A stretch of 64,000 bases of DNA, taken from contig NZ_FZOC01000004.1 of NCBI RefSeq assembly GCF_900188225.1, positions 223,537 to 287,536 on the forward strand. Direction: 5' to 3'. The stretch comes from Humidesulfovibrio mexicanus (GTDB lineage Bacteria; Desulfobacterota; Desulfovibrionia; Desulfovibrionales; Desulfovibrionaceae). The translations under genes and the position numbers were made by a program. The stretch's first letter is position 1; every line of letters starts with the position of its first letter. Below the pieces are notes generated by a model that worked only from the letters and a program-made list of their open reading frames with translations, was not told the origin of the DNA and made no database searches. Below, piece by piece: positions 15,634 to 35,031 of this stretch.

Positions 15634-16194
15634 TTATCTCTTATCCAGGCCAAGGCTGTGAAGCAGTTTGTAGGCATCTGCGGGCTCGTTCAAGAAGGCG
15701 CCGCGCACCGCGTTTTGGGCCAGGTCCGGAAGTCGGCTTTCCCCCATCACGATCTCGTAGGACTCCAACATGCCGTTCAGGCTCTTGGCCAGGGCGGCGA
15801 TGGTGTCGTCCTTGGCCTGGGACGCTTGCTGGCGCGCAATGGCAGCGAGTTCACCAGACAGCCACTCAGCGGAAGAGGGAATATGCCCGTGGCGCTCAAG
15901 GGCTTCAGCGATCTGCTCCAGGTTCTTTCTGCCGACGCCTTTTTGTTTCAGAAGGAAGGGGGCCGGACGAGGAGTCGAAGCGAGCTGTTTGGCGATGCCG
16001 TCGCCGTCGACCGCTTCAGGGAACAATCGTTTGAGCAGGTTGACCGCGCGGGTGTCCAGGTCGCCAAGGAAATCCGTCTTGCTTTGCTCAGTGATCTTCT
16101 TCATGGACCCCCCCTGTTTTTCGGTTTGGCGCTCTTCCCTGGTCAGGCAACCGCGCTCCCGGGCCAGACGCATGATGCATAGGAGGTCGGTCAT
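15634..16194 (-). CDS. Hypothetical protein with HhH-like segment, 186 aa
   Basis: The ATG at 16194 overlaps the upstream stop (TAATG), supporting coupling; an alternative ATG at 16104 (MKKITEQSK) has a stronger GGGGGG ribosome site, giving 156 residues. The middle holds GVGRKNLEQIAEALERHGH, like helix-hairpin-helix or RNA polymerase alpha-CTD segments, and the rest is helical. It is the last gene of the cargo block. Function unknown. Confidence 0.6.
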   Translation of the reverse strand: MTDLLCIMRLARERGCLTREERQTEKQGGSMKKITEQSKTDFLGDLDTRAVNLLKRLFPEAVDGDGIAKQLASTPRPAPFLLKQKGVGRKNLEQIAEALERHGHIPSSAEWLSGELAAIARQQASQAKDDTIAALAKSLNGMLESYEIVMGESRLPDLAQNAVRGAFLNEPADAYKLLHSLGLDKR

Positions 16195-16589
16195 TACGCG
16201 CCGCCCTGGGGCCTAGTCCGACGAAGATATGGTGAGTCCGGGCGGGCCTCGTCGGGGTGGTGCTTGTCAAGCCACCGCTCCAGTTTGTCCTTACATTCCC
16301 GCCATGGGGCCATCTGCTGCTGCTCCTGGCATTCAAAGTCCCCACGGTTCCTGTACGGCGGGCGCATTTCAGGAAGGGCACACTTTTCTTCCAAGTAAGC
16401 CTTCATACACTCATCGTGAAATTTTTCGAACTCCGGGTCATCTTCAAGGTGTCGGCAGATGCGATCATCCAATGCGTCGCTCCGCATTCGTATCGTATCC
16501 GTGTAGGCCTTGCTCGGCCCAGACCTGTCGCGGTCGGCGTTGCAGGCCAGCACAACCAAGCCCATGACGATGAGAAAGAAGAGCTCCAT
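16194..16589 (-). CDS. Putative lipoprotein, 131 aa
   Basis: The N-terminus MELFFLIVMGLVVLAC ends in a lipobox-like VLAC, predicting lipidation of Cys16. The mature part is highly charged with cysteines near CRHLEDDP, CMKAYLEEKC and FECQEQ. ATG 16589 overlaps the upstream TGA by one base. A phage lipoprotein in this position could act in exclusion; that is inference. Confidence 0.55.
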   Translation of the reverse strand: MELFFLIVMGLVVLACNADRDRSGPSKAYTDTIRMRSDALDDRICRHLEDDPEFEKFHDECMKAYLEEKCALPEMRPPYRNRGDFECQEQQQMAPWRECKDKLERWLDKHHPDEARPDSPYLRRTRPQGGA

Positions 16590-16972
16590 CACGGCTTTGC
16601 CCCTCGAACGAGCCCGTATTCGACCCTCAAGACATTCGTAAACTTTGGCAAAAAATGCCCAAGCGTGCTGTCCCAGCGTTCAGCGGTGCCCCAAAGGTCT
16701 TTCACCCCCACCCCGAGTGCGCAAGCCGCCGCGAAGCCAGCGCGCGGGAGGAAGCAATTCAGCATCTTCACGTTGGCGGCATTTACCTCGCCCTGGAGCA
16801 GCATTATGGACATGGACGCTACCGCGTTTTCCACCATAGCGTCGCCGCCCACGAGGAGCGCGATTTCGTTGATGGTGGACCAATACTCCGTGATGCTGTC
16901 CGGCTCGACCCCGACGGTTTTCGCGGCGAGGCAGAGTCCGATCTGTAGCCGTATGGCTCGGTCCTCGTTCAT
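16589..16972 (-). CDS. Hypothetical protein, 127 aa
   Basis: From ATG 16972 (MNEDRAIRLQIGLCLAAK) the sequence is mostly helical with hydrophobic stretches (EIALLVGGDAMVENAVASMS; GFAAACALGVGVKDLWG). It overlaps the upstream gene by four bases (ATGA). No family is recognised. Confidence 0.6.
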   Translation of the reverse strand: MNEDRAIRLQIGLCLAAKTVGVEPDSITEYWSTINEIALLVGGDAMVENAVASMSIMLLQGEVNAANVKMLNCFLPRAGFAAACALGVGVKDLWGTAERWDSTLGHFLPKFTNVLRVEYGLVRGAKP

Positions 16973-17436
16973 CCCACGTCTTCCTTCTCGACCACCGGCA
17001 GGGTCTCGTCCCCGCCAGCGTAGAAGACCTTCTTGCAGTCCACGCAGCGCCAGCGTTGCTTCCCCGCGTAGGCCGTCCATTTCCGGCTCGGCCCAGAACA
17101 CGCCGGACATGTCGGGTACCCTTTGGTCTTGGCCGTGCGGGCGCCCGCAGGCATTCCTGCGGAAGTTCGGCGCGTCTTCAAAAAGTTGGTGATCGTGCGC
17201 GACTTGAAATAGGCGAAACACCCGTCCACGAGGTCGGGCACGAGCAGCCCACTTTTGATGAGAGCATGGACGCGGGTGTCCCATAGGCCAAGCCTCTCCG
17301 CCACCTGCGGCACGTTCAGAAATCCTTTGATCTTCGGCACAGGTCCTCCACGTGGGGCACTGGCAGCCCCACGCTGATCGTAAGCCGACATGGTGGAGTT
17401 CGCAAGGGGGCGCGTGCTCTTGTCCTTCGAGGTCAT
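16969..17436 (-). CDS. HTH plus zinc-ribbon protein, 155 aa
   Basis: ATG 17436 follows AGGAG. Residues about 40-70 form an HTH (NVPQVAERLGLWDTRVHALI), and near 105-135 there is a zinc ribbon CPACSG ... RWRCVDCKKVF, like the ribbon of IS1-type and other transposase-related DNA-binding proteins. The combination suggests a DNA-binding regulator, possibly domesticated from a transposase N-terminal part; no catalytic domain is present. Confidence 0.6.
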   Translation of the reverse strand: MTSKDKSTRPLANSTMSAYDQRGAASAPRGGPVPKIKGFLNVPQVAERLGLWDTRVHALIKSGLLVPDLVDGCFAYFKSRTITNFLKTRRTSAGMPAGARTAKTKGYPTCPACSGPSRKWTAYAGKQRWRCVDCKKVFYAGGDETLPVVEKEDVG

Positions 17437-17516
17437 TCTCTTGCTCCTGTATTTCTTCCTGTACGGCGTTTTACGGCAGTTTGCCCCGTGAGCGACCAAC
17501 GAGCTGCGAACGGTGG

Positions 17517-17858: not shown

Positions 17859-17861
17859 GGG

Positions 17862-18710
17862 TTAGGCCTCCATCCACGCCGGGAACTGGCGGGGCATCCC
17901 CTCCGGGAACTCCCCAGCGGAGTCCTTTTTGAAGAAAAACGGCACGCCGACGCGGGCGCATTGCGAGGCCAGGGAGCCGGGGTACTGGATCGGGACTTCG
18001 CGCTTGCCCGGCCCCTGCTCGTGGCCGCAGACGACCCAGGAGAGGCGTCCCGCGTCTGAATGCACCACGTCACCTGTCCCACGTATGCCCCGCAAGGCGT
18101 CAATCCAGTCTGATTGCTCCCCCTCCGCTGCATCAACGACGATGGTTTTCAGGTTCACCGGCCCAAGCATGGGCTCCACGATGACGCCGGTGTGCCAGCC
18201 CTGCGCGGCCAACTTGAGCAGGTGCGGGACGCGCTCATCGGCCCGCTGCTGGTCCTCGCAGGTCGCCATGAGCATGACGTTGTGCAGGGGCTTGGGCCAG
18301 TATGCGCGACAAAACTCCGCCATGGTCGCCGGGCGTTTGGTGATGATGATGAAGTGGTGCCTGGGCAGGTCTCGCATGAAAACAAACACACCGCCCTGAT
18401 CCAAGGACATGACGCGAGGATGAAACAGATCGCCCATGCTCACCATGAAAATTCGCCGGGGACTCCTGGCCTTCAAGAGCCGGGCCTGGGCCTTCTCCAG
18501 CACGCCCGACACGTAACGGACTTCCCCGGTCCAGGCCGGACCATTCGGCGTCATCGTGGCGAGGCCCTTGTACTGCGGCACGGTCGGGTTGTTTCCGAAG
18601 CGATGTGCCATGCGGACTGCGTAGCAGTTGTCACAGCCGGGCGACACGCGGGAGCACCCCACCAGTGGGTTCAACGTCTCGTGCGCGAATTCGATCTTGG
18701 TTGTGGCCAT
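17862..18710 (-). CDS. DUF5131 (phage Gp37/Gp68) protein
   Basis: LNPLVGCSRVSPGCDNCYA (13-31) with Cys19, Cys26 and Cys29 is the defining start of DUF5131/phage Gp37-Gp68 proteins, which resemble radical-SAM enzymes with an iron-sulfur cluster. Further motifs fit: SMGDLFHPRV, FIIITKRPATM, NVMLMATCEDQQRADERV and the late WVVCGHEQGPGKR. The biochemical reaction is not established; nucleic-acid repair or modification is the common suggestion. It is well preserved at 282 residues. Confidence 0.8.
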   Translation of the reverse strand: MATTKIEFAHETLNPLVGCSRVSPGCDNCYAVRMAHRFGNNPTVPQYKGLATMTPNGPAWTGEVRYVSGVLEKAQARLLKARSPRRIFMVSMGDLFHPRVMSLDQGGVFVFMRDLPRHHFIIITKRPATMAEFCRAYWPKPLHNVMLMATCEDQQRADERVPHLLKLAAQGWHTGVIVEPMLGPVNLKTIVVDAAEGEQSDWIDALRGIRGTGDVVHSDAGRLSWVVCGHEQGPGKREVPIQYPGSLASQCARVGVPFFFKKDSAGEFPEGMPRQFPAWMEA

Positions 18711-18713
18711 GGG

Positions 18714-19682: not shown

Positions 19683-19685
19683 GAC

Positions 19686-20039: not shown

Positions 20040-20043
20040 GGCT

Positions 20044-20280: not shown

Positions 20281-20284
20281 GGCC

Positions 20285-20545: not shown

Positions 20546-20581
20546 GATCTGCCCCTCCTCGGGTGTTCGGAAGTTGGTGAG

Positions 20582-20862: not shown

Positions 20863-21351
20863 CTACGCCCCCATCCCGGCCACATCGCGCGCGCCGTCGA
20901 TCTTCGCGGCCATGGCCAGGACATGCGAGAGGCCGAGCTGGAGCTGCTGTGCCGCCTTTTCCTTGTGCGCGGCGAGTTCGTCGTTGGTCATGCCCGCCAG
21001 AAGGATGGCCTGGCCCAGCGTGGACTTCAGCTCGTGAAGTTCCAACTGGACCTCGGTGACGACGCGGCCAAGCCGGTTGATCTTCTCGGGGAGCATGTCG
21101 CCGAGGAACTGCGCGCCCCGGCCAGTGAGAAGCCAGTCCGGGTTAACCTGATGCAGGCGCATGATCTTCAACTGCCACTCGGGCGGAATGGACGCGCGGC
21201 GCTTGGCGTCGCTGATGCTCGACTGGCGCACGCCCAGCACTTCGGCCAGCTGCACCTGAGTGCGTGCGCCGGTAACGGTACGGATGCGATCCATAGCGGC
21301 TTCGTAGGCGGCGCGGACTTCCGGGGCGACTTCGATGATCTTCTTGGCCAT
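20863..21351 (-). CDS. Second CI-type HTH regulator, no peptidase domain
   Basis: ATG 21351 (MAKKIIEVAPEV) is selected. Residues 15-75 match the phage CI repressor N-terminal domain: TQVQLAEVLGVRQSSISDAK, then IPPEWQLKIMRLHQVNPDWL and LLTGRGAQFLG. The C-terminal half is a coiled coil plus helices instead of a LexA-type peptidase. It is the first gene after a 270-base gap, so it may sense and control the cargo block separately from the main repressor. Confidence 0.7.
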   Translation of the reverse strand: MAKKIIEVAPEVRAAYEAAMDRIRTVTGARTQVQLAEVLGVRQSSISDAKRRASIPPEWQLKIMRLHQVNPDWLLTGRGAQFLGDMLPEKINRLGRVVTEVQLELHELKSTLGQAILLAGMTNDELAAHKEKAAQQLQLGLSHVLAMAAKIDGARDVAGMGA

Positions 21352-21621
21352 GATGTACTCCTTTGCGTTGCATCGCAGCATTTGAAAGGGCGCGGGCCGT
21401 TGCCACATCGGCGTTGCTCACGCATTGCGCTTCCTTCCCGCTAGCCTCACGGGACCGTCAGCGTTGTTGCTGGGGAGGCGGTATCTGCCCCGCCGCGCCC
21501 TGCCAGCAATCCGCCGAGGAATCCCACTGTGGGCGTTACATCCGTCAGACGCGGCCTGCTGGCTCAAATGCTGCGATATTCGGTTGTCAAAGAGGCCAGG
21601 GCGTTTCCCCGGCCTTGGCGG
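21352..21621. other. 270-base intergenic region before the second regulator
   Basis: No coding frame is convincing. At 21592-21612 the minus strand forms an AGGCCGGGG/CCCTGGCCT stem with one G-U pair followed by CTTTG, a weak terminator for the 81-aa gene. The sequence next to the regulator start includes GATGCAACGCAAA, a possible operator half, but nothing firmer can be claimed. Confidence 0.4.
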
Positions 21622-21867: not shown

Positions 21868-21920
21868 GGCGTTCTCCTCGCTTCTGGTTCCATCCATCTC
21901 TTCCCTTCCCACAACTCAAC

Positions 21921-21950
21921 CCTACAACATCTACACAATAAACGCAACAA
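21921..21950 (-). promoter_or_regulatory. Conserved promoter-like element, copy B
   Basis: The minus strand reads TTGTTGCGTTTATTGTG (21950-21934), then TGTAGG at the -10 spacing of 18 bases. It stands 54 bases before the 21867 gene in an AT-rich island. Confidence 0.6.
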
Positions 21951-21965: not shown

Positions 21966-22463
21966 TTAGTCTACGTGAGCTTGCGATGCCGTTTCGCTAG
22001 CACAGTCCGCAGCCCTGGACCGGCCCGGCATGGTCTCCATGTCCTGGACCTGGTGAATGGGCCAGCGCAGGGCGCAGCGGCGCACCACGGACGCCAGAAG
22101 GCGGCGCTCCGCGTCCAGGTTGGCCTCCTGGGGCCTGGCCTTCACCACGACCTTGATCTGCTTCGGGAGGCAGTAGAGCAGGCCCCAGGCTTCGGGCAGC
22201 TCCTCGGGGCGGATCAGGCCCGGCGGGCACAGGTAGTACCGCAGGTTGCCCATGCCCGCCTCGGGCCGACGACGGTAGTATTTCTTGGCGTCGGCCAGGA
22301 AGTCCGAGCGCGTGGCCTTGCACTCCACGAGGATGGAGCCGTCACCGCCGTAGCCCCAGCCGTCCGGAATCTCCATGGCGGCCGTGGCCAGTTCGGAGAA
22401 GGCGATTGTGCAGCGGTTCCCCAGCCACTTGAGGCCGCGGGCGACGAGGTCGGCGTGAGTCAT
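21966..22463 (-). CDS. MmcB-like PD-(D/E)XK nuclease-type protein, 165 aa
   Basis: ATG 22463 overlaps the DUF1643 stop by four bases. IPDGWGYGGDGSILVECKAT then RSDFLADAKK is the D...ECK core of MmcB-like restriction-fold proteins, and MGNLRYYLCPPGLIRPEELP matches phage relatives. A role in DNA repair or degradation is expected from the fold. It reads from the operon started far upstream and lies next to promoter B of the following unit. Confidence 0.65.
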   Translation of the reverse strand: MTHADLVARGLKWLGNRCTIAFSELATAAMEIPDGWGYGGDGSILVECKATRSDFLADAKKYYRRRPEAGMGNLRYYLCPPGLIRPEELPEAWGLLYCLPKQIKVVVKARPQEANLDAERRLLASVVRRCALRWPIHQVQDMETMPGRSRAADCASETASQAHVD

Positions 22464-22999
22464 ACGCCCTCCAGAGGGACGGGCTTCACCCCACGCGGCA
22501 GGTACAGCGGGTGCTTCGGGGAGCCGTCCGCGTTCTGCCCCAGGCAGCGCACGTTCGACCCCAGGAGGCCCGATTCGAGCACCTGGACGGCGCGCTCCCG
22601 CGCAGCCCGGAAGGCCCCCCAGCCCGCAACCACGAGTTCGCTCTCGCGCACGGCGGTATGGATGGTGAAGTCGTTGAGCGGGCCAACAGGGTCGGGGTGC
22701 ACGAGCAGGGCCTTTGGGTCTGGTGACACCAGGGAGAACAGGTTGCACACCAGCAACCGCCCGTAGCCCTCCCAGGACCGGGCGAGGCCGATGAGGCGGC
22801 GCAGAGTCGGGTCGTCGTGCGTGGCGTTGGCCGTGGACGGATTCAGACCCACGAAGAGCACAGTCCAGCCGTAGCCCCACTGCCGGGTGAGCAGGTAGCG
22901 CCGGGTGTCGTTCTCGGCCATGATGGCGGAGCGGTGGACTTCCGGTGCCTTTTCCTTAGGCGTGAAGCAGGCCAGCATGGATGCTTCCTTGTCGCTCAT
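22460..22999 (-). CDS. DUF1643 protein, 179 aa
   Basis: From ATG 22999 the sequence shows the DUF1643 core: RYLLTRQWGYGW, VGLNPSTANATHDDPTLRRL, LLVCNLFSLVSPDPKAL, and late LVVAGWGAF. DUF1643 proteins are widespread on phages and mobile elements without a proven activity. Its stop overlaps the MmcB-like start, and its own start overlaps the ASCH-like gene end. Confidence 0.8.
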   Translation of the reverse strand: MSDKEASMLACFTPKEKAPEVHRSAIMAENDTRRYLLTRQWGYGWTVLFVGLNPSTANATHDDPTLRRLIGLARSWEGYGRLLVCNLFSLVSPDPKALLVHPDPVGPLNDFTIHTAVRESELVVAGWGAFRAARERAVQVLESGLLGSNVRCLGQNADGSPKHPLYLPRGVKPVPLEGV

Positions 23000-24018
23000 A
23001 TCGCCACCATGCTGCCCCATGCGGTGACGCTCACCCACGGGTTGTCCGCCCAGGCGAGGCCGGGGCGCTTGCCGTAGATCATATCCCAAAGGACGCGGTA
23101 TGCCTCGCGGGCGTATCCTTCCTTGAGAGAGAGGCTATGCTCCCCGAAGTTGTAGACCATCGCTATCTCTTCAGCCGTGAGGTACCCGTCGTGCACGCCA
23201 TCGAATGGCAGGTAGTCGGACGGGTCATGAACTGATGTTTCGAGGAGCTTTCCGCAACTGGTGCATTCCTCAAAGACATCCGACTCGATGGACGCCAAGC
23301 TCCACCCGCCGTCAACTTCAACATCTTTGCCTTCACGCCGGAGCTTCCACGCCTCTTTCTCCGCACAGCGGCGGCAGTAGGACTCTCCGTGGTCATGCGA
23401 AAGCCAGCATTGCGGCTCCCACTTTGGCTGGTATTTGAGGAGCCAGGACTTCACGGCCTCCTCTACGCCCTCGGCAATGGCTCCGGCCTCGGTGATCTCC
23501 CAAAGCCGTTCCACGCGCACAGCCAGCACGACCGTCTTGTAGCGCGCCGCCTCGCGGAAGATGCCGTTGGGGATGCCAACGCAGCGCATTGCCCACAAGG
23601 GAAGCATTGTCTTGAGTTCACCGATCATTAGGCGATTCGGGAAAATCAACGTCCGCGATGCCTTATCGGAGGCGTATTGGATGGTAACTTTGCAGCCATC
23701 CCATTCGTCCAGACATTCGCCCACGCGCCCTGGCTCCCGCAACCAGAGTTCCGTGCCGGGCAGGCCGAAGGGGGCGGCGATGTCGCGGATCGCCTGCGGG
23801 ATGTCGCTTGCCGCGCACTGGTAGAGGCACCCGTTGAACGTGTACTGCCAACCCGGTTCCTGCTCTTTGGCGCGGGCCTCCGGGGAGTTGTCCATCGGGT
23901 AGGCGACACGCCCGCACTCATGCAGATGCAGGCGTTTCGGTATGGGCCTGCGCGTCTCCGTCTTCTCCCCCAGGATCGCAGCCAGGGCCATTTCGGCGGT
24001 CAGGGGGAGCGGCTTCAT
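22996..24018 (-). CDS. ASCH-like phage protein, 340 aa
   Basis: The opening LTAEMALAAILGEKTETRRP resembles the start of ASCH-type phage proteins, with LWLREPGRVGEC and the late WDMIYGKRPGLAWADNPWV completing the pattern. Residues about 200-265 form an insertion with Cys/His pairs (CWLSHDHGESYCRRC; CTSCGK), a likely zinc knuckle not usual in shorter relatives. ASCH folds bind RNA or modified nucleotides. Both ends overlap neighbours by four bases. Confidence 0.65.
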   Translation of the reverse strand: MKPLPLTAEMALAAILGEKTETRRPIPKRLHLHECGRVAYPMDNSPEARAKEQEPGWQYTFNGCLYQCAASDIPQAIRDIAAPFGLPGTELWLREPGRVGECLDEWDGCKVTIQYASDKASRTLIFPNRLMIGELKTMLPLWAMRCVGIPNGIFREAARYKTVVLAVRVERLWEITEAGAIAEGVEEAVKSWLLKYQPKWEPQCWLSHDHGESYCRRCAEKEAWKLRREGKDVEVDGGWSLASIESDVFEECTSCGKLLETSVHDPSDYLPFDGVHDGYLTAEEIAMVYNFGEHSLSLKEGYAREAYRVLWDMIYGKRPGLAWADNPWVSVTAWGSMVAI

Positions 24019-24455
24019 TTGTCCTCCGTTGCGGCCAGGGCCACTCTCGCAAGTTCGTGGTGCTCAAACAGATTCCCGCTGTCCAAGATGCCGCGCAACG
24101 CTCTCCCTCTCGCCTCGGCGCGGTCCCGGTGCCCGTCGCGCTCACCCTCGACCTTGCGCAGCTTCTGGCGCGTTTCATGGAGGTGTTGCGCCTGCCGGAC
24201 CAGATGTGCGCCGCGCCGGGCGTAAGACGATTCCAGCGCCCGGAGGCGTTCCGTGGCTTGGCGCCGGAGCTCCACCTGTTCATTGCCATATGCCTGGAGC
24301 TGCGAAACCTGGGCGCGCAGACGGGCCATTTCAGCGTCGAAGGCAAGCCCGGCCTGCGTCGGGACAGCGATGTACGGAGGCAGCGGGGACGTGTCAGGAA
24401 TATCCTCCAGCAGCTTCTCGATGTCCTCAACCGAAACGAACAGTGTTTGGCTCAT
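24015..24455 (-). CDS. Coiled-coil hypothetical protein, 146 aa
   Basis: ATG 24455 (MSQTLFVSVEDIEKLLEDIP) overlaps the previous stop by four bases. Residues about 45-115 form a long coiled coil (MARLRAQVSQLQAYGNEQVE; LRKVEGERDGHRDRAEARGR). No family is recognised. Confidence 0.6.
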   Translation of the reverse strand: MSQTLFVSVEDIEKLLEDIPDTSPLPPYIAVPTQAGLAFDAEMARLRAQVSQLQAYGNEQVELRRQATERLRALESSYARRGAHLVRQAQHLHETRQKLRKVEGERDGHRDRAEARGRALRGILDSGNLFEHHELARVALAATEDK

Positions 24456-24946
24456 GCTGCCAGCTCCTTTGCGATGGCCCACAGGCCCGCGTCGCCTTCC
24501 CTCAGCACCTCAAGCAGCCTGCGTTTCTCCTCCAGGTAGACCGCGGCGAATTTTGGGTCGAAGGCCACGATGCTCTTGGTGTTGTCGATCAGGTCCGCCA
24601 GCTTGATCGTCTTGGCTACGGGACAGGCCTGGGTGGTGTGCCCCAGGTCGATGCGCTTGCGCATTGCCCTGTTTCCATCTTCAGGCCTGGACGGGTCGGT
24701 TAGCATTTCCACGAGGTCCGCCACGAATCGCCCAAATCTGTCGGCCAAGACGATGAAGGGCACACCGCAGTCCTCCACGGTGTCGTGCAGGAACGCTGCT
24801 GCGATTGCCTCCTCGGCTTCAACGACGGAGCGCACGAGCCCCGCCACGGCGAAGGGATGCACGATGTAGGGCTCCCCGGTGTATTTGCGCTTCTGACCCC
24901 GATGCGCCTGCGTGGCGAAGTCCATCGCGTCGGTGATGATGTTCAT
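24452..24946 (-). CDS. Small alarmone hydrolase-like HD protein (RelA/SpoT hydrolase fold)
   Basis: From ATG 24946 the 164 residues reproduce the RSH hydrolase motifs: AHRGQKRKYTGEPYIVHP (14-31), AAFLHDTVED (50-59) with His54-Asp55, and IKLADLIDN (104-112). Single-domain proteins of this length are small alarmone hydrolases (SAH/Mesh1-like), which remove pyrophosphate from (p)ppGpp. All metal-ligand positions recognisable by eye are kept. A phage copy could lower alarmone levels during growth arrest; related HD enzymes can also act on other nucleotides. Confidence 0.7.
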   Translation of the reverse strand: MNIITDAMDFATQAHRGQKRKYTGEPYIVHPFAVAGLVRSVVEAEEAIAAAFLHDTVEDCGVPFIVLADRFGRFVADLVEMLTDPSRPEDGNRAMRKRIDLGHTTQACPVAKTIKLADLIDNTKSIVAFDPKFAAVYLEEKRRLLEVLREGDAGLWAIAKELAA

Positions 24947-25396: not shown

Positions 25397-27319
25397 TTAT
25401 CCGTTCTGCCCCATCACCGGGGCTTCCGCCGCCATGAGCCCGGCCACCAGCGGCTGAACCCAGATCGGCGTGTTGCCCATGCTGAAGGTCTCGCCGCTCC
25501 AGGTGAGCAGCAGCACCTGGCCCATGACTCCGGCGATGGCCCGGGCAGCCGGAGGCGGCACGGCGTTTCCGATGCGCTCGCGCCAATGCATGTCCGACAG
25601 TCCGTCCAGCTCCAGCTGCTCATCCACGTCCACCAGCCCCTGCAATGCGGCCAGCTCCAGCGTGGTGAAGGGCCGGTGCCACGTGCCGTCCAATGCCTGG
25701 ATCACGGCCACGAGGTTCTGCCGCGGCTCGGGCATCCGAGGATCGGCGACGGACCAACGGCCATTGTCAGCGCCGGCCGATGCCGAGACGGCCCCGGCGG
25801 TGGCATCCCACGGCAGGACGCCGAAGTGGCCCCCGCCGTTGTAATTCTCGCGGTCTTTGCCGCCCCACATGCGCGGGTCGGCGACGGCATAGGCCCCCTG
25901 GCCCGTCGTGCTGCCGGAGATGACCGTGCCCGCCGGGTCGTCGAAGTCCGTCACGCCGTACTTGCCGAAGCTGTTGCTGGGCATCCTGGGATCGGCCACG
26001 GCCAAGCCTCCGGCACTCGGCCCGCCTCCGCCTGTCACTGCCGGGGAGGTCTCGGCGAAGCGCACCACGCGGAAGATGTTGTTGTGCCGCACGCCGTCAA
26101 AGCGCGGATCAGCAACCGCGTAGGGACCGCCTCCGGGCGCGCTCTGGCCGCTCACGGCCCCCATGCTCTTGTCCCAAGCGCGCACGCCGTACTGGCCGTA
26201 GTCCTGGCCGTGGAAGCGAGGATCAGCCACAGCAAACCGTCCGTTGTGCGGGAAACCGCGCGAGGTGACAGTTCCTGCGGGTTCGTCGAAGGCCATGACG
26301 CCCAGGCAGTCACCGCGCATCATGCGCTCGGCCCTGGGGTCGGCCACGCTGAACCGGCCACACGTGGGGCCAGCGTTGCCGGTGACGACTCCTGCCGGAT
26401 CGGTCCAGGGCAACACGCCCAGCGCGCCGTCCTGCCAGGTGCAGGCGGGCACAATGCCGTAGTCAGCAAGCTGGCCGTCCTCGACCCGCAGGCGGTTGAG
26501 AGTGCGCCAGTCGCCCCCGGCCTCCACGAAGGCCAGACGCAGCCACGTGCGCCATTGCAAAGCGGGCATACGGTGCATGGGGCCTGCGGCCAGATGTCCG
26601 GGCATGGGCATGTTGCCCAACACGTCGCCCACGGCGCGGAGAGTGCGCTTGCGGGGCTCGTAGAGGTAAGGCGGAACCTTGGCCGTGTGCCGGGCCACCA
26701 GGAGGAAGCGCTTGCGGCTCTGGGCCAGCCCGCCCAGCTCACCGCAGTCGTGGGTGGTTTCGGCCACGGCGTAGCCGTAGGAGCGCAGAAGACCCGTGAT
26801 CTGGTCCAACAGATGGCGCCCGCGCGTGGCGATCCTGGGCACGTTCTCGAACACGATCAGCTCCGGCGGGCCGTCGTCGTGGTCGGCCCAGGCCTCAAGC
26901 ATGAGCCACACGCCGCGCAACGTGAGGCGGTTGAGCGCCTGGTACTTGCCGGTCTTGCTCCGCGTCTCGGACAGCAGGCCCGAGAAGCCCTTGCAGGGCG
27001 CGGAGAGGAACACGATGTGCGGGCGCTCTCCGCCCGCCGCGCGCCGGATCGCATCCGGCCCGGCCTCGCGCCAGTCCGCCGGGGGCTCATGGCCGTGGAA
27101 GGCCCGATACTGCTCGCGGTCGAACATATCCAGGCACGTGCCCGGGACTCCGGCCATGCGGCCAAAGTCGGCGATTGCTGCCCGGTCCACGTCCACGCCG
27201 CCGATACAGCGGAAGCGGGCTTGCAGGTTGCCCACCCGGGCCTCGCCCTGGTTGAAGCCGCGCGCGCCGCCGCCCAGGCCGCAGAACAGGTGGAAGTGCT
27301 TGATCTCGACGATACTCAT
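25397..27319 (-). CDS. C5-cytosine DNA methyltransferase with six VADPR repeats, 640 aa
   Basis: Motif I is HLFCGLGGGARGF (10-22). SAPCKGFSG (106-114) holds the catalytic Cys109, with APC in place of the usual PPC. ENV is at 158-160, QSRKRF at 200-205 and motif X is RIGNAVPP near the end. Between VIII and X a long region contains six copies of VADPR, each preceded by a GTV-type segment, roughly every 35-45 residues. This is far longer than a standard 300-400 residue enzyme. No restriction gene is adjacent, so it is probably an orphan methylase protecting phage DNA. Target sequence cannot be read from the protein. Confidence 0.85.
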   Translation of the reverse strand: MSIVEIKHFHLFCGLGGGARGFNQGEARVGNLQARFRCIGGVDVDRAAIADFGRMAGVPGTCLDMFDREQYRAFHGHEPPADWREAGPDAIRRAAGGERPHIVFLSAPCKGFSGLLSETRSKTGKYQALNRLTLRGVWLMLEAWADHDDGPPELIVFENVPRIATRGRHLLDQITGLLRSYGYAVAETTHDCGELGGLAQSRKRFLLVARHTAKVPPYLYEPRKRTLRAVGDVLGNMPMPGHLAAGPMHRMPALQWRTWLRLAFVEAGGDWRTLNRLRVEDGQLADYGIVPACTWQDGALGVLPWTDPAGVVTGNAGPTCGRFSVADPRAERMMRGDCLGVMAFDEPAGTVTSRGFPHNGRFAVADPRFHGQDYGQYGVRAWDKSMGAVSGQSAPGGGPYAVADPRFDGVRHNNIFRVVRFAETSPAVTGGGGPSAGGLAVADPRMPSNSFGKYGVTDFDDPAGTVISGSTTGQGAYAVADPRMWGGKDRENYNGGGHFGVLPWDATAGAVSASAGADNGRWSVADPRMPEPRQNLVAVIQALDGTWHRPFTTLELAALQGLVDVDEQLELDGLSDMHWRERIGNAVPPPAARAIAGVMGQVLLLTWSGETFSMGNTPIWVQPLVAGLMAAEAPVMGQNG

Positions 27320-27542: not shown

Positions 27543-29162
27543 CTAGGCCGCCGCCAGTGCCGGAACGCTTGCCATGTCGAGCGCAAACGATGACCGCCAC
27601 GCACCCTTGGCCGCGTGGTCGCCCATCTCTTCCTCGGCTTGCCGCTGCGACGTGACCCAGCCGAGCAACCGCCCGGCTTCGACGTTCAGCCGCCCCATGA
27701 ACTCCCGGTGAAACTTGAGGTGCATGTTGCCGTTCAAGTAGACCTTGGCTGCCAGCAGCACGCCTCCATCGAAGTAGGCTTCGCGCCACACTCCGGGGGT
27801 CCACTCTCTGCCCCGCAGGTTCCGGTCGGAAACGCCTTCAAAGCCGAGGTTGCGGGCGATGGTGCAGATGTCTTGCAGCGTCTCCGCGCGGTAGTCGTCC
27901 CTGCTCCAGGAGTATTCTTTTGAGAAGTAATGGCCCTCAAGAATGAAGCGGTAGTCGAGCGCGTACTGGCCCAGCTTCCCCTCACGCAAATCCCAGCCGT
28001 TCCTGGATCGCCACGAACCGTCCAGGAAGTGCTGATTGCTCTTGTACGGGATCGTCGAGTTTTGGCAGGACAGGTGCTTGAACACCTCGACAAGCTGCTG
28101 GTCGAAGTATTGGTTGGCGTTTTTGACCACCCAAATGAGCACGGTGTAGACGTTGCTGGCGTCGAAATCGACATTCGCCGCGTGCATCAGCCTTTCGAGC
28201 AGCGCCTTGCGGGACTTGCTGGTGAGGCGCGTCGTCACCTTGTCCAGGTTGTTGAAGACCTCTTGCCAGTATTTGTTCTTGAGGTTCTTGATCTTTTCGC
28301 GCAGCGCGCCGCGGATGGCCTCTTTCTCAACGCCGATATCCTTCAAAGTCTGCACGTCGAGCGCGGTGATGGCCTTGTAGGAGGCGTAAAGTCGGGCCAG
28401 TTCGTCATGGTACAGCGCCTCAAGGGCTTCCACGAGGTTTCGGCCAGACACCAGCGCCTTGTCGCGCAGAGACTCGCCTTCGACCTCTTGGAACTCCGGG
28501 GCGGCGTGGAACTCAAACTGGCCGTCGAACCAGGCCCCGAACGGGTCGCACTCGCTGCCACCGTAGCGGTCTCCGCTGTAGGCGATGCGCACGATATCCA
28601 CCGTGGCGCGCGCCGCGCGCTCCGCGTTGAGGAAGTCGCCAGACCAAAGCACCTCTGTCTTGAGTTCGCGCTTCTCGATGGCGTCCTGAATCTCGCGATT
28701 CTCTTTCCACCGGCGCGGGATGATGAGGTAGGCGGCGAAGAAGAAGCCCTCGCGGATAATCTTGCAGGCCCACTCGGCGTACTCGCTGTAAGGCGGGTTG
28801 CAGAAGATCGTCTCCACCGGCTTGTCGATCAGGCTCTGGGCCATGAAGTCACAGCCGACCGGGAAGACATACTCCGGCCACTGCTGGGCGAGGATGCTCG
28901 ATTTCTCGATGGCCATGAGCTTGTGGGCCTCGCAGTGCTCTTTGAAATAGCGGAGCGCGCGCCCGTCGCCAGCCCCGATGTCGAGGATTCCCGTCAGCTT
29001 GTCGCGGTAGCGGTGCGGGACGCTCCAGGCCTTGGCCTTGATGTCTGCGGCGACGACGGAAAGCATGGCCTCCGTGGTCGGATACCACTCGAAGTCCTGG
29101 TCGGCGTCGATGATGGATTGGAGGATGTTCTGCCGGGGCCTGGAGTTGGTCGCCTGGTCCAT
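27543..29162 (-). CDS. Adenine methyltransferase-like protein with DUF4942, 539 aa
   Basis: ATG 29162 overlaps the upstream TGA. The N-terminal third is a Rossmann methyltransferase: ILDIGAGDGRALRYFKEH (motif I, 59-76) and FCNPPYSEY (motif IV NPPY, 122-125) typical of N6-adenine or N4-cytosine enzymes. The C-terminal half (residues about 240-450; LERLMHAANVDFDASNVYTV, GHYFSKEYSWSRDD) matches the DUF4942 part of such fused phage proteins. It likely modifies phage DNA or blocks restriction. Confidence 0.8.
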   Translation of the reverse strand: MDQATNSRPRQNILQSIIDADQDFEWYPTTEAMLSVVAADIKAKAWSVPHRYRDKLTGILDIGAGDGRALRYFKEHCEAHKLMAIEKSSILAQQWPEYVFPVGCDFMAQSLIDKPVETIFCNPPYSEYAEWACKIIREGFFFAAYLIIPRRWKENREIQDAIEKRELKTEVLWSGDFLNAERAARATVDIVRIAYSGDRYGGSECDPFGAWFDGQFEFHAAPEFQEVEGESLRDKALVSGRNLVEALEALYHDELARLYASYKAITALDVQTLKDIGVEKEAIRGALREKIKNLKNKYWQEVFNNLDKVTTRLTSKSRKALLERLMHAANVDFDASNVYTVLIWVVKNANQYFDQQLVEVFKHLSCQNSTIPYKSNQHFLDGSWRSRNGWDLREGKLGQYALDYRFILEGHYFSKEYSWSRDDYRAETLQDICTIARNLGFEGVSDRNLRGREWTPGVWREAYFDGGVLLAAKVYLNGNMHLKFHREFMGRLNVEAGRLLGWVTSQRQAEEEMGDHAAKGAWRSSFALDMASVPALAAA

Positions 29163-29805: not shown

Positions 29806-29816
29806 GTTTTGCCCCC

Positions 29817-30307: not shown

Positions 30308-30308
30308 C

Positions 30309-30716: not shown

Positions 30717-30777
30717 TTCTTCTCTCCACCCTTGCGGTTTAAGGTGCTTCCCTTCTCCATTCCCTCAACACCTAAAC

Positions 30778-30807
30778 CATATACCATCTACACAATTAAT
30801 GCAACAA
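30778..30807 (-). promoter_or_regulatory. Conserved promoter-like element, copy C
   Basis: The minus strand reads TTGTTGCATTAATTGTG (30807-30791) and TATATG at 30783-30778 with an 18-base spacer, the best -10 among the copies. It stands 62 bases before the DUF2958-like gene. Confidence 0.65.
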
Positions 30808-30838
30808 TTCGTACAAAAAAATGTTCCTCTACCGCTAG

Positions 30839-31138: not shown

Positions 31139-31341
31139 TACAGACCTTCCTTCTCGGCGAACCAGGTGTCTACCTCCAGGGTGACGCCGTCGCCGCGGTC
31201 AAGCCCTTTCCAGGCGTCGTCACACACGCTCTTGGGAATCCACACGTCCTCGCCATCGACCTTGACGCAGACGGCCTTGCCGCTCTCACACTGGAAAACG
31301 CCATCAACTCTCGTGGTGTCGTCATCGTCGAAGAAACCCAT
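31138..31341 (-). CDS. Small acidic hypothetical protein, 67 aa
   Basis: From ATG 31341 (MGFFDDDDTTRVDGVFQCES) the protein is acidic and beta-rich (KAVCVKVDGEDVWIPKSVC). It overlaps the next gene by one base. No family recognised. Confidence 0.6.
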   Translation of the reverse strand: MGFFDDDDTTRVDGVFQCESGKAVCVKVDGEDVWIPKSVCDDAWKGLDRGDGVTLEVDTWFAEKEGL

Positions 31342-31342
31342 G

Positions 31343-31594
31343 TTAGCCCCCCGGGTAGGTGAAGATTTCGTGCATAACGCGAGAGTGCAGATAGGACACG
31401 GCCCCAGCCGCCGCGTAGATGTTGTCGGGGAATGTCCCGGCCCAGCCGATTCCCGTGTAGTCCTGGGCGCCGCATGTGGCGTAGGCAATGCCGGTGATCC
31501 GGCCAGCCTTCGCTTCTTCGAGAAGCTGTTCCAGCAGCTCAACTGTGTCCGGATTCGGCTGGCCCGTTTGTGGAAGCAAGAAAAGCTCGGCCAT
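31343..31594 (-). CDS. Hypothetical protein, 83 aa
   Basis: It reads MAELFLLPQTGQPNPDTVEL, then LLEEAKAGRITGIAYATCGA and GWAGTFPDNIYAAAGAVSYL. The pattern (helix, ITGIAYA strand, D.Y.A.GA) is a frequent small phage family of unknown role. It begins two bases after its upstream neighbour stops. Confidence 0.65.
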   Translation of the reverse strand: MAELFLLPQTGQPNPDTVELLEQLLEEAKAGRITGIAYATCGAQDYTGIGWAGTFPDNIYAAAGAVSYLHSRVMHEIFTYPGG

Positions 31595-31596
31595 GG

Positions 31597-31956
31597 CTAG
31601 GAGTCTGCCTTGGCCGCTTCGCGCTCGGCCTTCTTGGCCAGGTACTTCTTGCAGATCGGACAGGTCTTGGGGTTCTTCTCGTCTGCGCAATGGAATGGAA
31701 AGCCGGTGCTCCATCTTGCACAGTGCCCGCGCGGGCAGAAATGGCCGTCCAAAAGCTTGATGCAGGTCCAAATAGCATCGCGCAGAGCGGCCTTGTCGCC
31801 TCGAGTGCGGCATTTGTCGCCTAGGTGTTGAAACAACCACTTCACCGTCACGTTTGGCTCCGCAGGGTTCAACCGCTTTGGGCGTTGCCTGTTCTGGCTC
31901 GCGGCGTACGATCGAACGATGTGCGGGATATCAATGGCGTAATAGGGATCGGACAT
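31597..31956 (-). CDS. Zinc-binding hypothetical protein, 119 aa
   Basis: From ATG 31956 (MSDPYYAIDIPHIVRSYAAS) the N-terminal half is helical; the C-terminal third has HFCPRGHCARW, FHCADEKNPKTCPICKKYL, a probable double zinc site. It follows GGAGGCACC. Function unknown. Confidence 0.6.
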   Translation of the reverse strand: MSDPYYAIDIPHIVRSYAASQNRQRPKRLNPAEPNVTVKWLFQHLGDKCRTRGDKAALRDAIWTCIKLLDGHFCPRGHCARWSTGFPFHCADEKNPKTCPICKKYLAKKAEREAAKADS

Positions 31957-31964
31957 GGTGCCTC

Positions 31965-32504
31965 CTACCGGCCCAGCGCGGCCAGGGCTTCGGACTCCTT
32001 GCAGGGCACCAGCCAGGGCGGCGGGGTCGGCATGTCCCCGTTCTGGGGGTCGCCGTTGCCCGTGGGCACCTTGACGACGATGACGCCGTCGCGGAAGCCC
32101 GCCACGGTGCGCCCAATCACCCTCCCGCAGTAGACCTCGTGCCGCATGTCGAGCTTCTTTACGACGAACTGTCCCCGGTCGATGGAGCTCTTGCTCAACT
32201 CGTCTAGGGCCGTGTTCAGTTCCGTCCCCAGCTTGGTCCCTAGGTGCGGGGCGTAGCCGTATCCCTCGGTGACGTAGCAATCCATCTTGAGCCCCTTGGA
32301 CTTTGCGTCCTTGCCGCTCAACTTCTCCTTGAACACCGGGCCGCCGACGCTGGTCCCGCGCATCCAGATGTTTTCGTAGCCACGCGCCTGTTTGAAGGCA
32401 TTCGCCGCCTCAATGAACGCGTCGTATTTGGCGTTGGCCTCCGCGATGATGGCCTCGGCCTCCGGCCCCCTGCCGATGAAATGCTGGTAGATGATCTCGC
32501 TCAC
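31965..32504 (-). CDS. Hypothetical protein, 179 aa
   Basis: The first 45 residues form a charged helix (RGPEAEAIIAEANAKYDAFI). The middle contains GYGYAPHLGTKLGTELNTAL and a beta-rich C-terminal part (FVVKKLDMRHEVYCGRVIGR, VIVVKVPTGNG). No family is recognised with confidence. It lies eight bases after the next upstream gene. Confidence 0.6.
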   Translation of the reverse strand: MSEIIYQHFIGRGPEAEAIIAEANAKYDAFIEAANAFKQARGYENIWMRGTSVGGPVFKEKLSGKDAKSKGLKMDCYVTEGYGYAPHLGTKLGTELNTALDELSKSSIDRGQFVVKKLDMRHEVYCGRVIGRTVAGFRDGVIVVKVPTGNGDPQNGDMPTPPPWLVPCKESEALAALGR

Positions 32505-32512
32505 ATTGCCTC

Positions 32513-32872
32513 CTAGATGCGAAATTCGCGGTTGATGGCGGTGAGGGCTTCCAGGTAGCCGTTGACCTTTTCGAGCACGATGGAGGCGGCGTAGACACGG
32601 TTCACCGTGATGAACTTGATCTGGTCGCCACCCCTTCGCGTCGCCAACGCGGCCATCTGCGGCGCGTCCTTCACGCCCCAGCTCACGGCCTGAGCGAAGC
32701 TGCCAACGACATAGGCGTCGCCGCTCACGACCAAGAACATCCCGTGATTCTCGTCGCAGACCATGATGTTCTGACCGACCAGGGCCCGGCTCTCAAGGAT
32801 GTCCTCGGCGCGCTCAACGTCCTTCCAGAATCCGGCGACGATGCGCTCCAAAATCTCTTGCCTCGTTTTCAT
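32513..32872 (-). CDS. Hypothetical protein, 119 aa
   Basis: ATG 32872 follows GGGGGTGGAG and encodes MKTRQEILERIVAGFWKDVE. The centre (GMFLVVSGDAYVVGSFAQAV) is beta-rich and the end helical. It is the first gene behind promoter element D. No family recognised. Confidence 0.6.
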   Translation of the reverse strand: MKTRQEILERIVAGFWKDVERAEDILESRALVGQNIMVCDENHGMFLVVSGDAYVVGSFAQAVSWGVKDAPQMAALATRRGGDQIKFITVNRVYAASIVLEKVNGYLEALTAINREFRI

Positions 32873-32947
32873 CTCCACCCCCGCTTGTTGATGTTCAACC
32901 TCTACTCAACCAACGGCTAAAACATACCACAAACGCTAAAAAAGGTC

Positions 32948-32964
32948 CACAATAAATACAACAA
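32948..32964 (-). promoter_or_regulatory. Conserved promoter-like element, copy D
   Basis: The minus strand reads TTGTTGTATTTATTGTG, identical over 17 bases to copy E. It stands 76 bases before the 32872 gene in an AT-rich gap of 118 bases; TTTAGC lies at the -10 distance. Confidence 0.6.
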
Positions 32965-32990
32965 TCACGACACAAAAAAGACCTGGCGAA

Positions 32991-33311
32991 CTACCCTTCT
33001 TCATCCGCGAGTCTCCGACCTTCGTTCGCCCGTTCGATCGTGTAGTTGTCCAGAGCGCAACGCAGGGTCATCGCAACCCCTCTGGGGATGGTGAAGTCCC
33101 AGCCGTCCATGCTGACGCGCACCTCCTCAACCAAGCGGCTTCCCCGCTGGTCCTGAAGCTCGGTCAAGTGAAAACAGTCGGTCAGGGTGTCGTTGATTTC
33201 CTCTTCGGTGATTCCCTCGGGAACAGCCACGCTGGGGTCCGCCGGGCGGTCCGGGTAGCCGTCGATGATCTTGGCGATGCGCTCGGCGCGCTCGATGTTC
33301 TCATGGCGCAT
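32991..33311 (-). CDS. Hypothetical protein, 106 aa
   Basis: The product (MRHENIERAERIAKIIDGYP, later GITEEEINDTLTDCFHLTEL, then MDGWDFTIPRGVAMTLRCAL) is an acidic alpha/beta protein. It ends just left of promoter D and starts three bases from the next gene. No family recognised. Confidence 0.6.
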   Translation of the reverse strand: MRHENIERAERIAKIIDGYPDRPADPSVAVPEGITEEEINDTLTDCFHLTELQDQRGSRLVEEVRVSMDGWDFTIPRGVAMTLRCALDNYTIERANEGRRLADEEG

Positions 33312-33313
33312 GG

Positions 33314-33565
33314 CTAGGCCTCCTCGTCGGGTTCTTTAGCAGTTTCGCGCGGCACCCAAACCCAGGCGCTCACCCAGCAGCCGTCCTCGCCGTCTGAGAA
33401 GCATGGCCCGTCGTCGATCTCCAGTTCATCGGTGCAAAGCGCGCGGGCGCTCTCCTCGATGGCGTCGGCGTATTCCGGGCGCTCGGTCATCTGGCGCAGA
33501 ATCGCTGCGGCTTCTTCCGGCTTGCCCGCGTCCAGCAGGGCCAGGGCGTTGTGTACGGCATTCAT
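33314..33565 (-). CDS. Acidic hypothetical protein, 83 aa
   Basis: ATG 33565 (MNAVHNALALLDAGKPEEAA) begins a helical repeat-like first half, followed by an acidic region (TDELEIDDGPCFSDGEDGCW) and VSAWVWVPRET. Similar short proteins recur in phages. It overlaps the upstream gene by four bases. Confidence 0.6.
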   Translation of the reverse strand: MNAVHNALALLDAGKPEEAAAILRQMTERPEYADAIEESARALCTDELEIDDGPCFSDGEDGCWVSAWVWVPRETAKEPDEEA

Positions 33566-33780
33566 GATTTGCTCTCGCTGTCGCTGGTGAATGCTCCCAC
33601 GATGCCCATATGGCCGCACTCGACGCACGTGCATTGGCTGTCGTCGTCCCACTCCGCGTGCTCCATGTCCCCGCTCCCGTTGTCGTAAACAGTCACGGTG
33701 GTCTTGACCTCGATGTCGAAGGGCTCATAGCTGCCGCATTCCGGGCAGCGGAAGCCTTCCAAGCAATTACTGTTGCTCAT
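33562..33780 (-). CDS. Zinc-ribbon protein, 72 aa
   Basis: From ATG 33780 the pairs FRCPECGSYEPF (residues 10-21) and CTCVECGHMG near 50-57 form a classical zinc ribbon with an acidic linker. It may bind nucleic acid or a host protein. Coupled to the following gene by a four-base overlap. Confidence 0.65.
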   Translation of the reverse strand: MSNSNCLEGFRCPECGSYEPFDIEVKTTVTVYDNGSGDMEHAEWDDDSQCTCVECGHMGIVGAFTSDSESKS

Positions 33781-33800
33781 TCTGGCGCTCCTCTGCTGAC

Positions 33801-34214
33801 TTACCACCAGCTATCGTAATAGACTTCCAGGCCCTCATCCAGAGCCGCCTTGGCCTTGGCGACGAACTCCAGGTGCATCGGCTTGTCCGCCTCGGTGTCG
33901 CTGGCCCCGAAGAAGAAGCCCCCGGTCTTGGGCAGACTGTCGGACAAGATGTCCGCCTCCAGGCGCTCAATGTCCTCCATGGTGAGCTGCACCGGAGCGC
34001 AGTTGAAGTCTTGGTCCCGCCCTCCCTTCTCCCGGTAAAGCTTCTCCATCCAGCCGTGCAGGTCCGGGCACTTACGCCAGTAGAACAACCCTTGAACGCA
34101 CTCTCTTGATTCGCGGCACTCGTCCTTGTCCATGACCGTGATGTCATCCACGAAGTCCACAGGCTTTGAAATGGTCCCAGCCGGAACGGTGCAGGCATAC
34201 ATATCGAGTCCCAT
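33801..34214 (-). CDS. MGLDMY-type conserved phage protein, 137 aa
   Basis: The start MGLDMYACTVP, the middle FYWRKCPDLHGWMEKLYREK and DFNCAPVQLTMEDIERLEAD, and the end GFFFGASD and YYDSWW are the full signature of a very widespread phage protein family sometimes mis-labelled phosphoglycerate kinase. Its role is not established. A GGGGGCC/GGCCCCC hairpin with a GCGA loop lies just before its ribosome site. Confidence 0.75.
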   Translation of the reverse strand: MGLDMYACTVPAGTISKPVDFVDDITVMDKDECRESRECVQGLFYWRKCPDLHGWMEKLYREKGGRDQDFNCAPVQLTMEDIERLEADILSDSLPKTGGFFFGASDTEADKPMHLEFVAKAKAALDEGLEVYYDSWW

Positions 34215-34226
34215 AGCATTTCCTCC

Positions 34227-34246
34227 TGGGGGCCTCGCGGCCCCCG
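34227..34246 (-). promoter_or_regulatory. Hairpin immediately upstream of a ribosome site
   Basis: On the minus strand GGGGGCC-GCGA-GGCCCCC is followed directly by AGGAGGAAATGCT and the ATG at 34214. There is no T-run, so it is not a normal terminator. It may protect the transcript or adjust translation. Confidence 0.5.
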
Positions 34247-34260
34247 GCTGTTGTTGGTTC

Positions 34261-35031
34261 CTAGTGAATTTCCGCGTTGGACATGGTCCCGCTGGATTCC
34301 AAGTACTGCTTGGCCAACGCGCTGTGCAGGCGGGGCAGAAAGGGCTTGTCCAGGCTCATGTCGATGCTGTTGCGCTCGTCCATCATCGGCATGACGATGC
34401 CCAAAAATTCAGGATGGGAGCTGACGGTGACGAACACCGGGGATCCGAGACCGGTCGGGTGGAAGGAGACAACGCGGGAGCTACCGTCCCCGAAATCATA
34501 CTGCCCGACATGGTCCACCGGGAGCATGATGTCCTCCAGTGTGGTTTCCGACGCCATGGCCGACTCGCGCTTTGCCCAAAAGCCCTCAGAGTTCGGCCAC
34601 TGGAATGATTTCAAGCAATCCTCCGGCCTGGGGTCGATGTAGAGCACCACATTGTGCCCGTTCTCGACGCGCACCGCATGAGAAACATGCTCGACCAGGG
34701 GTTCCCAACCTTCGCCGCGCTCCATGATCTTCTCGGCGTGTTCAATGACCAGCTCCGGCTCAACCGTAACCGTCGTGCGCCCGACTTTCATCTTGCTGGG
34801 CTTGAAGGCCTTGAGAAGTCCCGGCGTGGGCTTGAACACCGCGCTGGGGATGTCGCACACGCCGTCCTTGTCGTGGAACACCCCGTACTGGTGGCCGTTT
34901 AGGGCCTCGATGAGCACCCCCTCGGTGCCTTCGCAGGGGCGGATGTGGAAGCACGCGATGGCGTCCATCGCGTCCTCGTTGGACCGGAAGCGGTTGAGCA
35001 ACCAAAGGTACTTCGCCTTCACCCGAACCAT
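34261..35031 (-). CDS. Sliding-clamp-like phage protein, 256 aa
   Basis: ATG 35031 (MVRVKAKYLWLLNRFRSNED) is used. The segment GVLIEALNGHQYGVFHDKDG then VCDIPSAVF resembles the first domain of DnaN-like clamps (..L.ATDGH.L......). Later VSFHPTGLGSPVFVTVSSHP and FLGIVMPMMDER could be the final domain strands. A full beta clamp is about 370 residues, so this would be a shortened, diverged form. It is the first gene of the cargo block behind promoter element E. The assignment is tentative. Confidence 0.4.
   Translation of the reverse strand: MVRVKAKYLWLLNRFRSNEDAMDAIACFHIRPCEGTEGVLIEALNGHQYGVFHDKDGVCDIPSAVFKPTPGLLKAFKPSKMKVGRTTVTVEPELVIEHAEKIMERGEGWEPLVEHVSHAVRVENGHNVVLYIDPRPEDCLKSFQWPNSEGFWAKRESAMASETTLEDIMLPVDHVGQYDFGDGSSRVVSFHPTGLGSPVFVTVSSHPEFLGIVMPMMDERNSIDMSLDKPFLPRLHSALAKQYLESSGTMSNAEIH

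Follow-up and report, generated by a model that had tools for sequence, protein, structure and literature searches.

The prophage in the 64,000-nt stretch of the Humidesulfovibrio mexicanus genome analysed here (the window) devotes a third of its length to genes that run against its head genes. Forty-one minus-strand genes occupy 19.4 kb between the gene for a MuF-like head protein, which ends at 15557, and the scaffold gene, which starts at 35360, confirming the initial annotation, in which the block had been placed inside the head region. We consider this block probably to be a moron-type accessory region, unusually large, at a hotspot between the packaging (MuF) and scaffold-major capsid protein (MCP) modules of a temperate siphovirus. 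The MuF–scaffold junction is an insertion hotspot among relatives. The block and its anchors are as follows.

15634..35031, minus strand: opposite-strand cargo block, 41 genes in four element-headed runs (gene calling)
14466..15557, plus strand: MuF-like head protein, left junction anchor (Phage_Mu_F, 1.7e-9)
35360..36130, plus strand: scaffold protein (DUF6651), right junction anchor (DUF6651, 7.2e-16)

For the survey of this junction we took 44 viral loci found by their MCP, 79 more found by a MuF profile (80 rows, one duplicate), 18 genome stretches (locus L085 left out) and four reference phages. A MuF search of viral contigs with a single sequence confirmed no locus; the profile built from an alignment succeeded. 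TerL, portal, MuF, scaffold and MCP were labelled by iterated hidden Markov models (HMMs). Genes were called in 145 sources, namely the window plus 144 loci, L052 being too short, and 63 were kept, in which MuF is followed by scaffold with both on the plus strand. Viral loci were trimmed to flanks of 10 kb and genome loci to flanks of 20 kb, and minus-strand genes under 50 aa were ignored; because of this trimming, long blocks are censored and probably undercounted. We relied on a de-duplication that merges records if either flanking protein is at least 90% identical, which leaves 44 clusters, window included. A looser version by MuF alone scarcely collapsed control-junction loci without MuF, and the stricter version lowers significance.

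Minus-strand genes lie at the MuF–scaffold junction in 13 of the 44 clusters, with two or more in 11. The other 31/44 are the relatives without minus-strand genes there that the initial annotation had proposed to look for. Neighbouring junctions carry such genes less often: TerL–portal in 0/37, portal–MuF in 4/51 and scaffold–MCP in 2/37. Against the pooled 6/125, a control that takes the three junctions as independent although they come from the same loci, the 13/44 gives a Fisher p of 4.4e-5 (1.2e-4 without the window). De-duplication by MuF only gives 14/47 versus 0/46, 4/54 and 2/47 (pooled 6/147, p = 5.6e-6), with 33/47 lacking minus-strand genes. When junctions are free of such genes, the median MuF–scaffold gap, 394 nt, is the widest of the four (others 8, 156 and 86 nt). 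The gap in the window, 19,802 nt, is the largest seen and the next is 7,590 nt (L274), with viral flanks cut at 10 kb.

The same junction is also a place of rearrangement. L056, L066 and L068 have their portal gene next to the scaffold gene, on the minus strand and divergent from scaffold-MCP (inverted packaging genes). The MuF–scaffold junction thus marks a border between modules besides receiving cargo. Large minus-strand proteins at this place in L054 and L060 resemble terminases by eye. A contiguous head module, which the initial annotation had taken as the norm, thus cannot safely be assumed in this group: insertions recur at the junction, and three loci have a reversed, divergent portal. 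Searched with the MuF profile, 297 genomes of the phylum gave 13 that matched, few of them full-length; six loci came from genome contigs, none of which entered the count. In locus L092 (genome G285, contig C8) the MuF gene is itself split in two pieces by an opposite-strand 295-aa open reading frame (ORF), the MuF–scaffold junction being otherwise without minus-strand genes.

The contents of the junction vary among relatives, as had been suggested. We collected 84 minus-strand proteins from 16 of the 20 occupied loci (four duplicates omitted; some of the 16 are still near relatives). Pfam recognised DUF932 (5), DUF4942 (4), IrrE-type peptidase (4), HigB (3), HicB-like antitoxin (3), BrnT (1) and others, and the kinds of cargo differ between loci: DUF932, DUF4942, XRE-IrrE, toxin-antitoxins and one TIGR-TasA-like locus. 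Turnover is visible even within one MuF cluster (L048/L282, L279 and L280; 90%, single linkage), where L280 has the TIGR-TasA-like locus and is without the DUF4942 and DUF932 genes of L282. In L280 (IMGVR_UViG_3300027800_000347), positions 11562-13097 hold 17 repeats with an exact 36-nt period in two arrays (5 + 12). These flank a 279-aa TasA-like protein whose matches include a solved IS110-C-terminal-domain protein (6e-30) and TasH (2.9e-8), and the locus fits the TIGR-Tas architecture given in PMC12045711. L279 holds 5 of the TIGR-like repeats. Locus L091 has a tandem GCCA repeat at 7756-7858, towards the end of a cargo gene encoding 573 aa.

Within the window, gene calls come from our own simple caller, and a plus-strand ORF at 17390-17491 was discarded as spurious. 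The coding density of the block is 94% and the median protein is 113 aa. Among the 40 gene junctions, 10 are four-base overlaps, 5 are one-base overlaps and 26 are at 5 nt or less, so the tightly packed arrangement described earlier holds, with the count corrected from about 39 to 41. The assignments of DUF5131, DUF1643, HD, Phage_CI_repr, C5 methylase and DUF4942 all reached Pfam cut-offs. The block had also been called rich in zinc-ribbon miniproteins. A few CxxC proteins are present (two or more motifs in 4/41, one in 5/41), and the Pfam zinc-ribbon matches lie under cut-off. The block genes that could be characterised, all on the minus strand, are these.

34261..35031, minus strand: first block gene, 256 aa, the sole block gene with a BLAST relative in another junction block
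27543..29162, minus strand: DUF4942 protein, 539 aa, with a methyltransferase-like N-terminal part (PF13708 4.5e-14; phrog_6263 DNA methyltransferase 3.1e-5)
25397..27319, minus strand: C5 cytosine methyltransferase (PF00145 9e-14; 60% identical to the methylases of phages Dobby and LKA5)
24452..24946, minus strand: HD phosphohydrolase (HD_4 1.1e-14)
22996..24018, minus strand: phrog_874 protein adjoining the DUF1643 gene (PHROGs; same adjacency for the LKA5 relative)
22460..22999, minus strand: DUF1643 protein (PF07799 1.1e-34; 43% to LKA5)
21966..22463, minus strand: phrog_631 or DNA-repair-protein-like (phrog_5429 2.3e-10)
20863..21381, minus strand: second CI-like helix-turn-helix (HTH) regulator (Phage_CI_repr 6e-9)
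17862..18710, minus strand: DUF5131 protein (PF07505 1.2e-51)

DUF4942 is present also, at the family level, in the L048 and L089 blocks; the pairwise BLAST match with L048 is weak (E 0.003). Phage relatives of the HD protein are annotated as phosphohydrolase or (p)ppGpp synthetase/hydrolase. The relative of the first gene, in the L086/L254 junction block, is 24% identical over 229 aa. Pfam gave no match for this gene, and its fold model is unusable (two-sequence alignment, predicted local distance difference test (pLDDT) 35). By eye, the first gene and its L086 relative appeared sliding-clamp-like; we dropped this assignment, as a PDB sequence search gave nothing useful. The C5 methylase has six VADPR segments 38-45 residues apart, possibly several target-recognition repeats.

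These proteins do not look like a replication module. No replication gene was recognised among them (Pfam 41/41; PHROGs 40/41, the first gene by Pfam only), and the contents vary at the junction; the reading of the block as core replication genes is disfavoured. An invariable core replication block in most relatives, which the initial annotation had named as evidence against its own proposal, was not what the survey found. Because the block is large, discrete and single-stranded and has its own HTH regulator, it might also be a nested mobile element or phage satellite inside the prophage. We regard this as very improbable, since the same searches found no integrase, primase or capsid-hijack family in the block and its composition equals that of the phage. 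Compared with plasmids, the DNA of the block gave one match, about 173 nt long at 80%.

That composition also bears on our preferred reading, an accessory region at a hotspot. GC and GC3 (GC at third codon positions) of the block are like those of the flanking phage genes, with a GC3 of 0.817 (one spurious ORF included) versus 0.811 and 0.807. Several results weigh against the accessory reading. The shared composition argues against recent acquisition, and any acquisition is therefore old or since ameliorated. BLAST links only 1/41 block genes to a protein of another junction block, and descent from the relatives' blocks is therefore not supported. A defence role is weak, because PADLOC matches are mostly to methylases and unnamed candidate families. 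In our view a composition unlike that of the phage is an optional trait of morons, and the block does not show it. The host take-over or counter-defence function suggested earlier finds indirect evidence only, in the two methyltransferase-like proteins, the HD hydrolase and the accessory or defence-type genes at this junction in relatives. As judged from protein families, DNA modification and host control would be the most likely functions.

What ties the block together is a short shared element. A 53-nt family, whose four copies are 60-75% alike, lies upstream of the minus-strand genes starting at 35031, 32878, 30716 and 21897, and has a near-invariant 17-bp core, TTGTTGYATTWATTGTG. Allowing up to three mismatches, this core occurs at five sites in the window, all on the minus strand, versus a mean of 0.07 in 100 shuffles. 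The fifth copy is outside the block, before a two-gene minus-strand cassette that precedes TerS and includes a 3'-phosphoadenosine 5'-phosphosulfate (PAPS)-reductase-like gene.

35101..35117, minus strand: element copy 1, 86 nt before gene 34261-35031
32948..32964, minus strand: element copy 2, 86 nt before gene 32513-32878
30791..30807, minus strand: element copy 3, 91 nt before gene 30309-30716
21934..21950, minus strand: element copy 4, one mismatch, 53 nt before gene 21622-21897
10821..10837, minus strand: element copy 5, two mismatches, outside the block, 59 nt before gene 10074-10778
10074-10778, minus strand: PAPS-reductase-like gene, first of the two-gene cassette, with element copy 5 upstream
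9305-10021, minus strand: second gene of the cassette (9305..10778), no named product; fold model unusable (single sequence, pLDDT 41)

All five copies are intergenic and lie 53-91 nt upstream of a minus-strand start codon; strand-positions that are both intergenic and 40-100 nt before a same-strand start make up 1.3% of the window. The stretches from element to start are poor in C (2-10%). The 20 kb adjoining the window has no match at up to three mismatches. In 287 other genomes of the family Desulfovibrionaceae there are 18 matches in 16 genomes, all with one mismatch and at most two per genome, and a backward-read control pattern gives 13 matches in the same genomes. The 144 relatives' junction loci (1.87 Mb) yield two single matches, with two mismatches each. 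In viral contigs the pattern matches at least 120 stretches, with one match each in 80 among the matches listed. Within the DNA searched, the element is so far specific to the cargo of this phage.

Since the same element heads four runs in the block and the minus-strand pair at 9305-10778, the cargo resembles a single regulon interspersed among the late genes, with the element as a putative promoter. The block extent given in the initial annotation, 15634-35031, stands, and the cargo takes in this pair as well. The repeats reported there as shared promoter elements are likewise borne out as repeats; they may be promoters, operators or both. Several results weigh against that interpretation. 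None of the copies overlaps a sigma-70-like site in our scans, and no clear -10 is visible by eye at copy 5; a 9-of-12 sigma-70-like site lies just upstream of it (10887-10859, minus strand), and such sites are not above shuffles. The cargo of nine relative loci (L048, L086, L089, L091, L268, L269, L273, L274 and L280, near-identical phages among them) has no comparable shared element; in L280 the TIGR-like array came up instead. A repeat picked by eye at CI/Cro, TTGGCAAAAT, has exact copies solely there; at up to one mismatch it gives 4 matches versus 2.7 expected, one of them inside a block gene at 16645. Control of the cargo separate from CI is plausible, a case that these inexact matches weaken.

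The five elements could instead be recombination boundaries that aid cassette swaps. They stand at the starts of gene runs, are alike over about 53 nt and coincide with no sigma-70-like site. We think this rather unlikely, as they keep to a single strand throughout, always 53-91 nt before a start codon, with no copy at the MuF-side end of the block and nothing in the relatives beyond the two single two-mismatch matches. Copies 1-3 (window 30768-35130) are spaced 2157 and 2153 nt apart. No paralogs were found within the block at E<0.01 by BLAST, and the spacing of about 2.15 kb is therefore not from BLAST-detectable gene duplication. A tandem repeat, AACACACC, with an 8-nt period and 3.8 copies, lies at 10795-10824, where it adjoins and slightly overlaps copy 5.

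Known systems resemble parts of this arrangement. In Stenotrophomonas phage DLP4 the YbiA operon is on the reverse strand within the virion-morphogenesis genes, has its own predicted promoter, and ybiA is expressed in the lysogen (PMC6469090). This moron operon, found also in PaMx28, AAT-1 and Xoo-sp2, is like the window block in placing reverse-strand accessory genes inside the head region, and in PaMx28 six minus-strand genes are seen directly in the virion region. The DLP4 operon differs in lying one junction later, at scaffold–MCP, and in having about 2.75 kb, six genes and one promoter, against 19.4 kb, 41 genes and four element-headed runs here. Given this precedent, the window block belongs to a known kind, of which it is an unusually large form with several operons. 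The antiviral hotspots of P2 and P4 (Rousset et al. 2022, PMC9122126) are likewise high-turnover loci between two conserved phage genes. They are, however, about 1-5 kb, lie beside cos or between a replication gene and portal, and carry tested defence systems, whereas the window block is larger (19.8-kb gap), sits at MuF–scaffold and holds mainly uncharacterised genes.

The element itself recalls the start-associated sequences of Cluster K mycobacteriophages, which are short, asymmetric and seldom found in the host, and recur before non-structural genes with one orientation prevailing (PMC3203893). Those lie 3-7 bp before starts, at the ribosome binding site, while the window element is 53-91 nt upstream and confined to opposite-strand cargo. 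We found no description of cargo at the MuF–scaffold junction in the literature surveyed, which covers part of the field. What is new is how large the block is, that several of its runs are headed by the element, and that the element recurs at a second site.

Phage LKA5 (Hollowayvirus) has a C5 methylase (60%), a phrog_874 protein (27%) and a DUF1643 protein (43%) clustered on one strand, as in the block. The phrog_874-like and DUF1643 genes follow the methylase, and recombination genes lie upstream with two opposite-strand genes between. This cluster differs in being in the non-structural region, near recombination genes, and not between head genes; its position suggests that cassettes from the non-structural region were probably taken up into the block. 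In Dobby the methylase is followed by a gene annotated PAPS reductase and then by excisionase and integrase; that PAPS-reductase gene has no BLAST match among the window proteins.

Such relatives in non-structural regions would also fit another history, in which the minus-strand region from 9.3 to 35 kb was already present as a non-structural arm of the phage when the small packaging cassette, TerS-MuF (4.7 kb), entered it, and cargo did not split the head. The element links minus-strand genes on both sides of that cassette, and L056, L066 and L068 are rearranged, with the reversed portal beside scaffold. The prophage, though, already has a left arm elsewhere, which is without the element; most clusters (31/44) have no minus-strand genes at the junction, and the block has no recognised replication gene. 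We judge a moved packaging cassette unlikely.

Under our preferred reading, an accessory region at a hotspot, the block would probably have been assembled from cassettes of the non-structural region. The element would act as a promoter or operator read by one regulator, host or phage, with the second CI-like protein (20863-21381) and a CII-like protein (3775-4248) as candidates. Some 43 cargo genes, all read leftward, would then belong to a single regulon. It would be active in the lysogen and/or soon after infection, separately from the late genes, which are read rightward. Their functions might include DNA self-modification, nucleotide or alarmone handling and host control, as suggested by the methylases, HD hydrolase, DUF5131, DUF1643, DNA-repair-like protein and HTH regulator. 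The full version of this scheme, about 43 genes at two late-region sites under five operator copies and a regulator independent of the lytic switch, we put forward tentatively, as possible rather than probable. If it is true, the late and cargo programmes would share one stretch of DNA, read in opposite directions and at separate times. A phage can devote a third of its genome to cargo at MuF–scaffold, and this junction in Desulfovibrionaceae-type siphophages is a place to mine accessory or defence-type genes, the TIGR-TasA-like locus included. Through the shared element one can test directly how many cargo genes might be kept under separate control from the late genes in temperate phages.

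The prophage, about 58.8 kb in a host genome of 3.5 Mb, is integrated in tRNA-Pro; a 47-bp repeat at window position -7014 bounds it on one side and the tRNA-Pro 3' end at 51758 on the other. Its gene order is left arm, TerS-TerL-portal-MuF, minus-strand block, scaffold, MCP and tail genes. The left arm has integrase-like, RecT-like and Cro genes named by eye, a CII (CP76) gene recognised by Pfam (the CII-like protein at 3775-4248) and a CI-like HTH gene whose Pfam score is just under cut-off. Pfam gave no match for TerS or TerL of the window; the identity of TerL follows from its naming in the initial annotation, its position and an HMM that labels the annotated terL of JG012. An HMM from the window scaffold labels the annotated head scaffolding protein of PaMx28. 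The window MCP is about 46% identical to that of PaMx28, and most of 40 relatives among the matches listed have a major capsid or head annotation.

36155..37087, plus strand: major capsid protein, matches in 163 phage records
15604..15629, no strand assigned: inverted repeat, candidate terminator, in the 76-nt gap at the convergent ends of MuF and the block
51758..51804, no strand assigned: attR, 47 bp identical to attL at -7014, at the tRNA-Pro 3' end

In a scan for terminator-like sites, which found 22 versus 16.1 +/- 4.0 in shuffles, the stem at 15604..15629 is perfect on the plus strand only, the MuF side. By our reading, the minus strand has two stem mismatches followed by six T; we first accepted the repeat as a terminator of the block, a view that these mismatches weakened. 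The att repeat sits inside a wider match of 112 bp at 91%.

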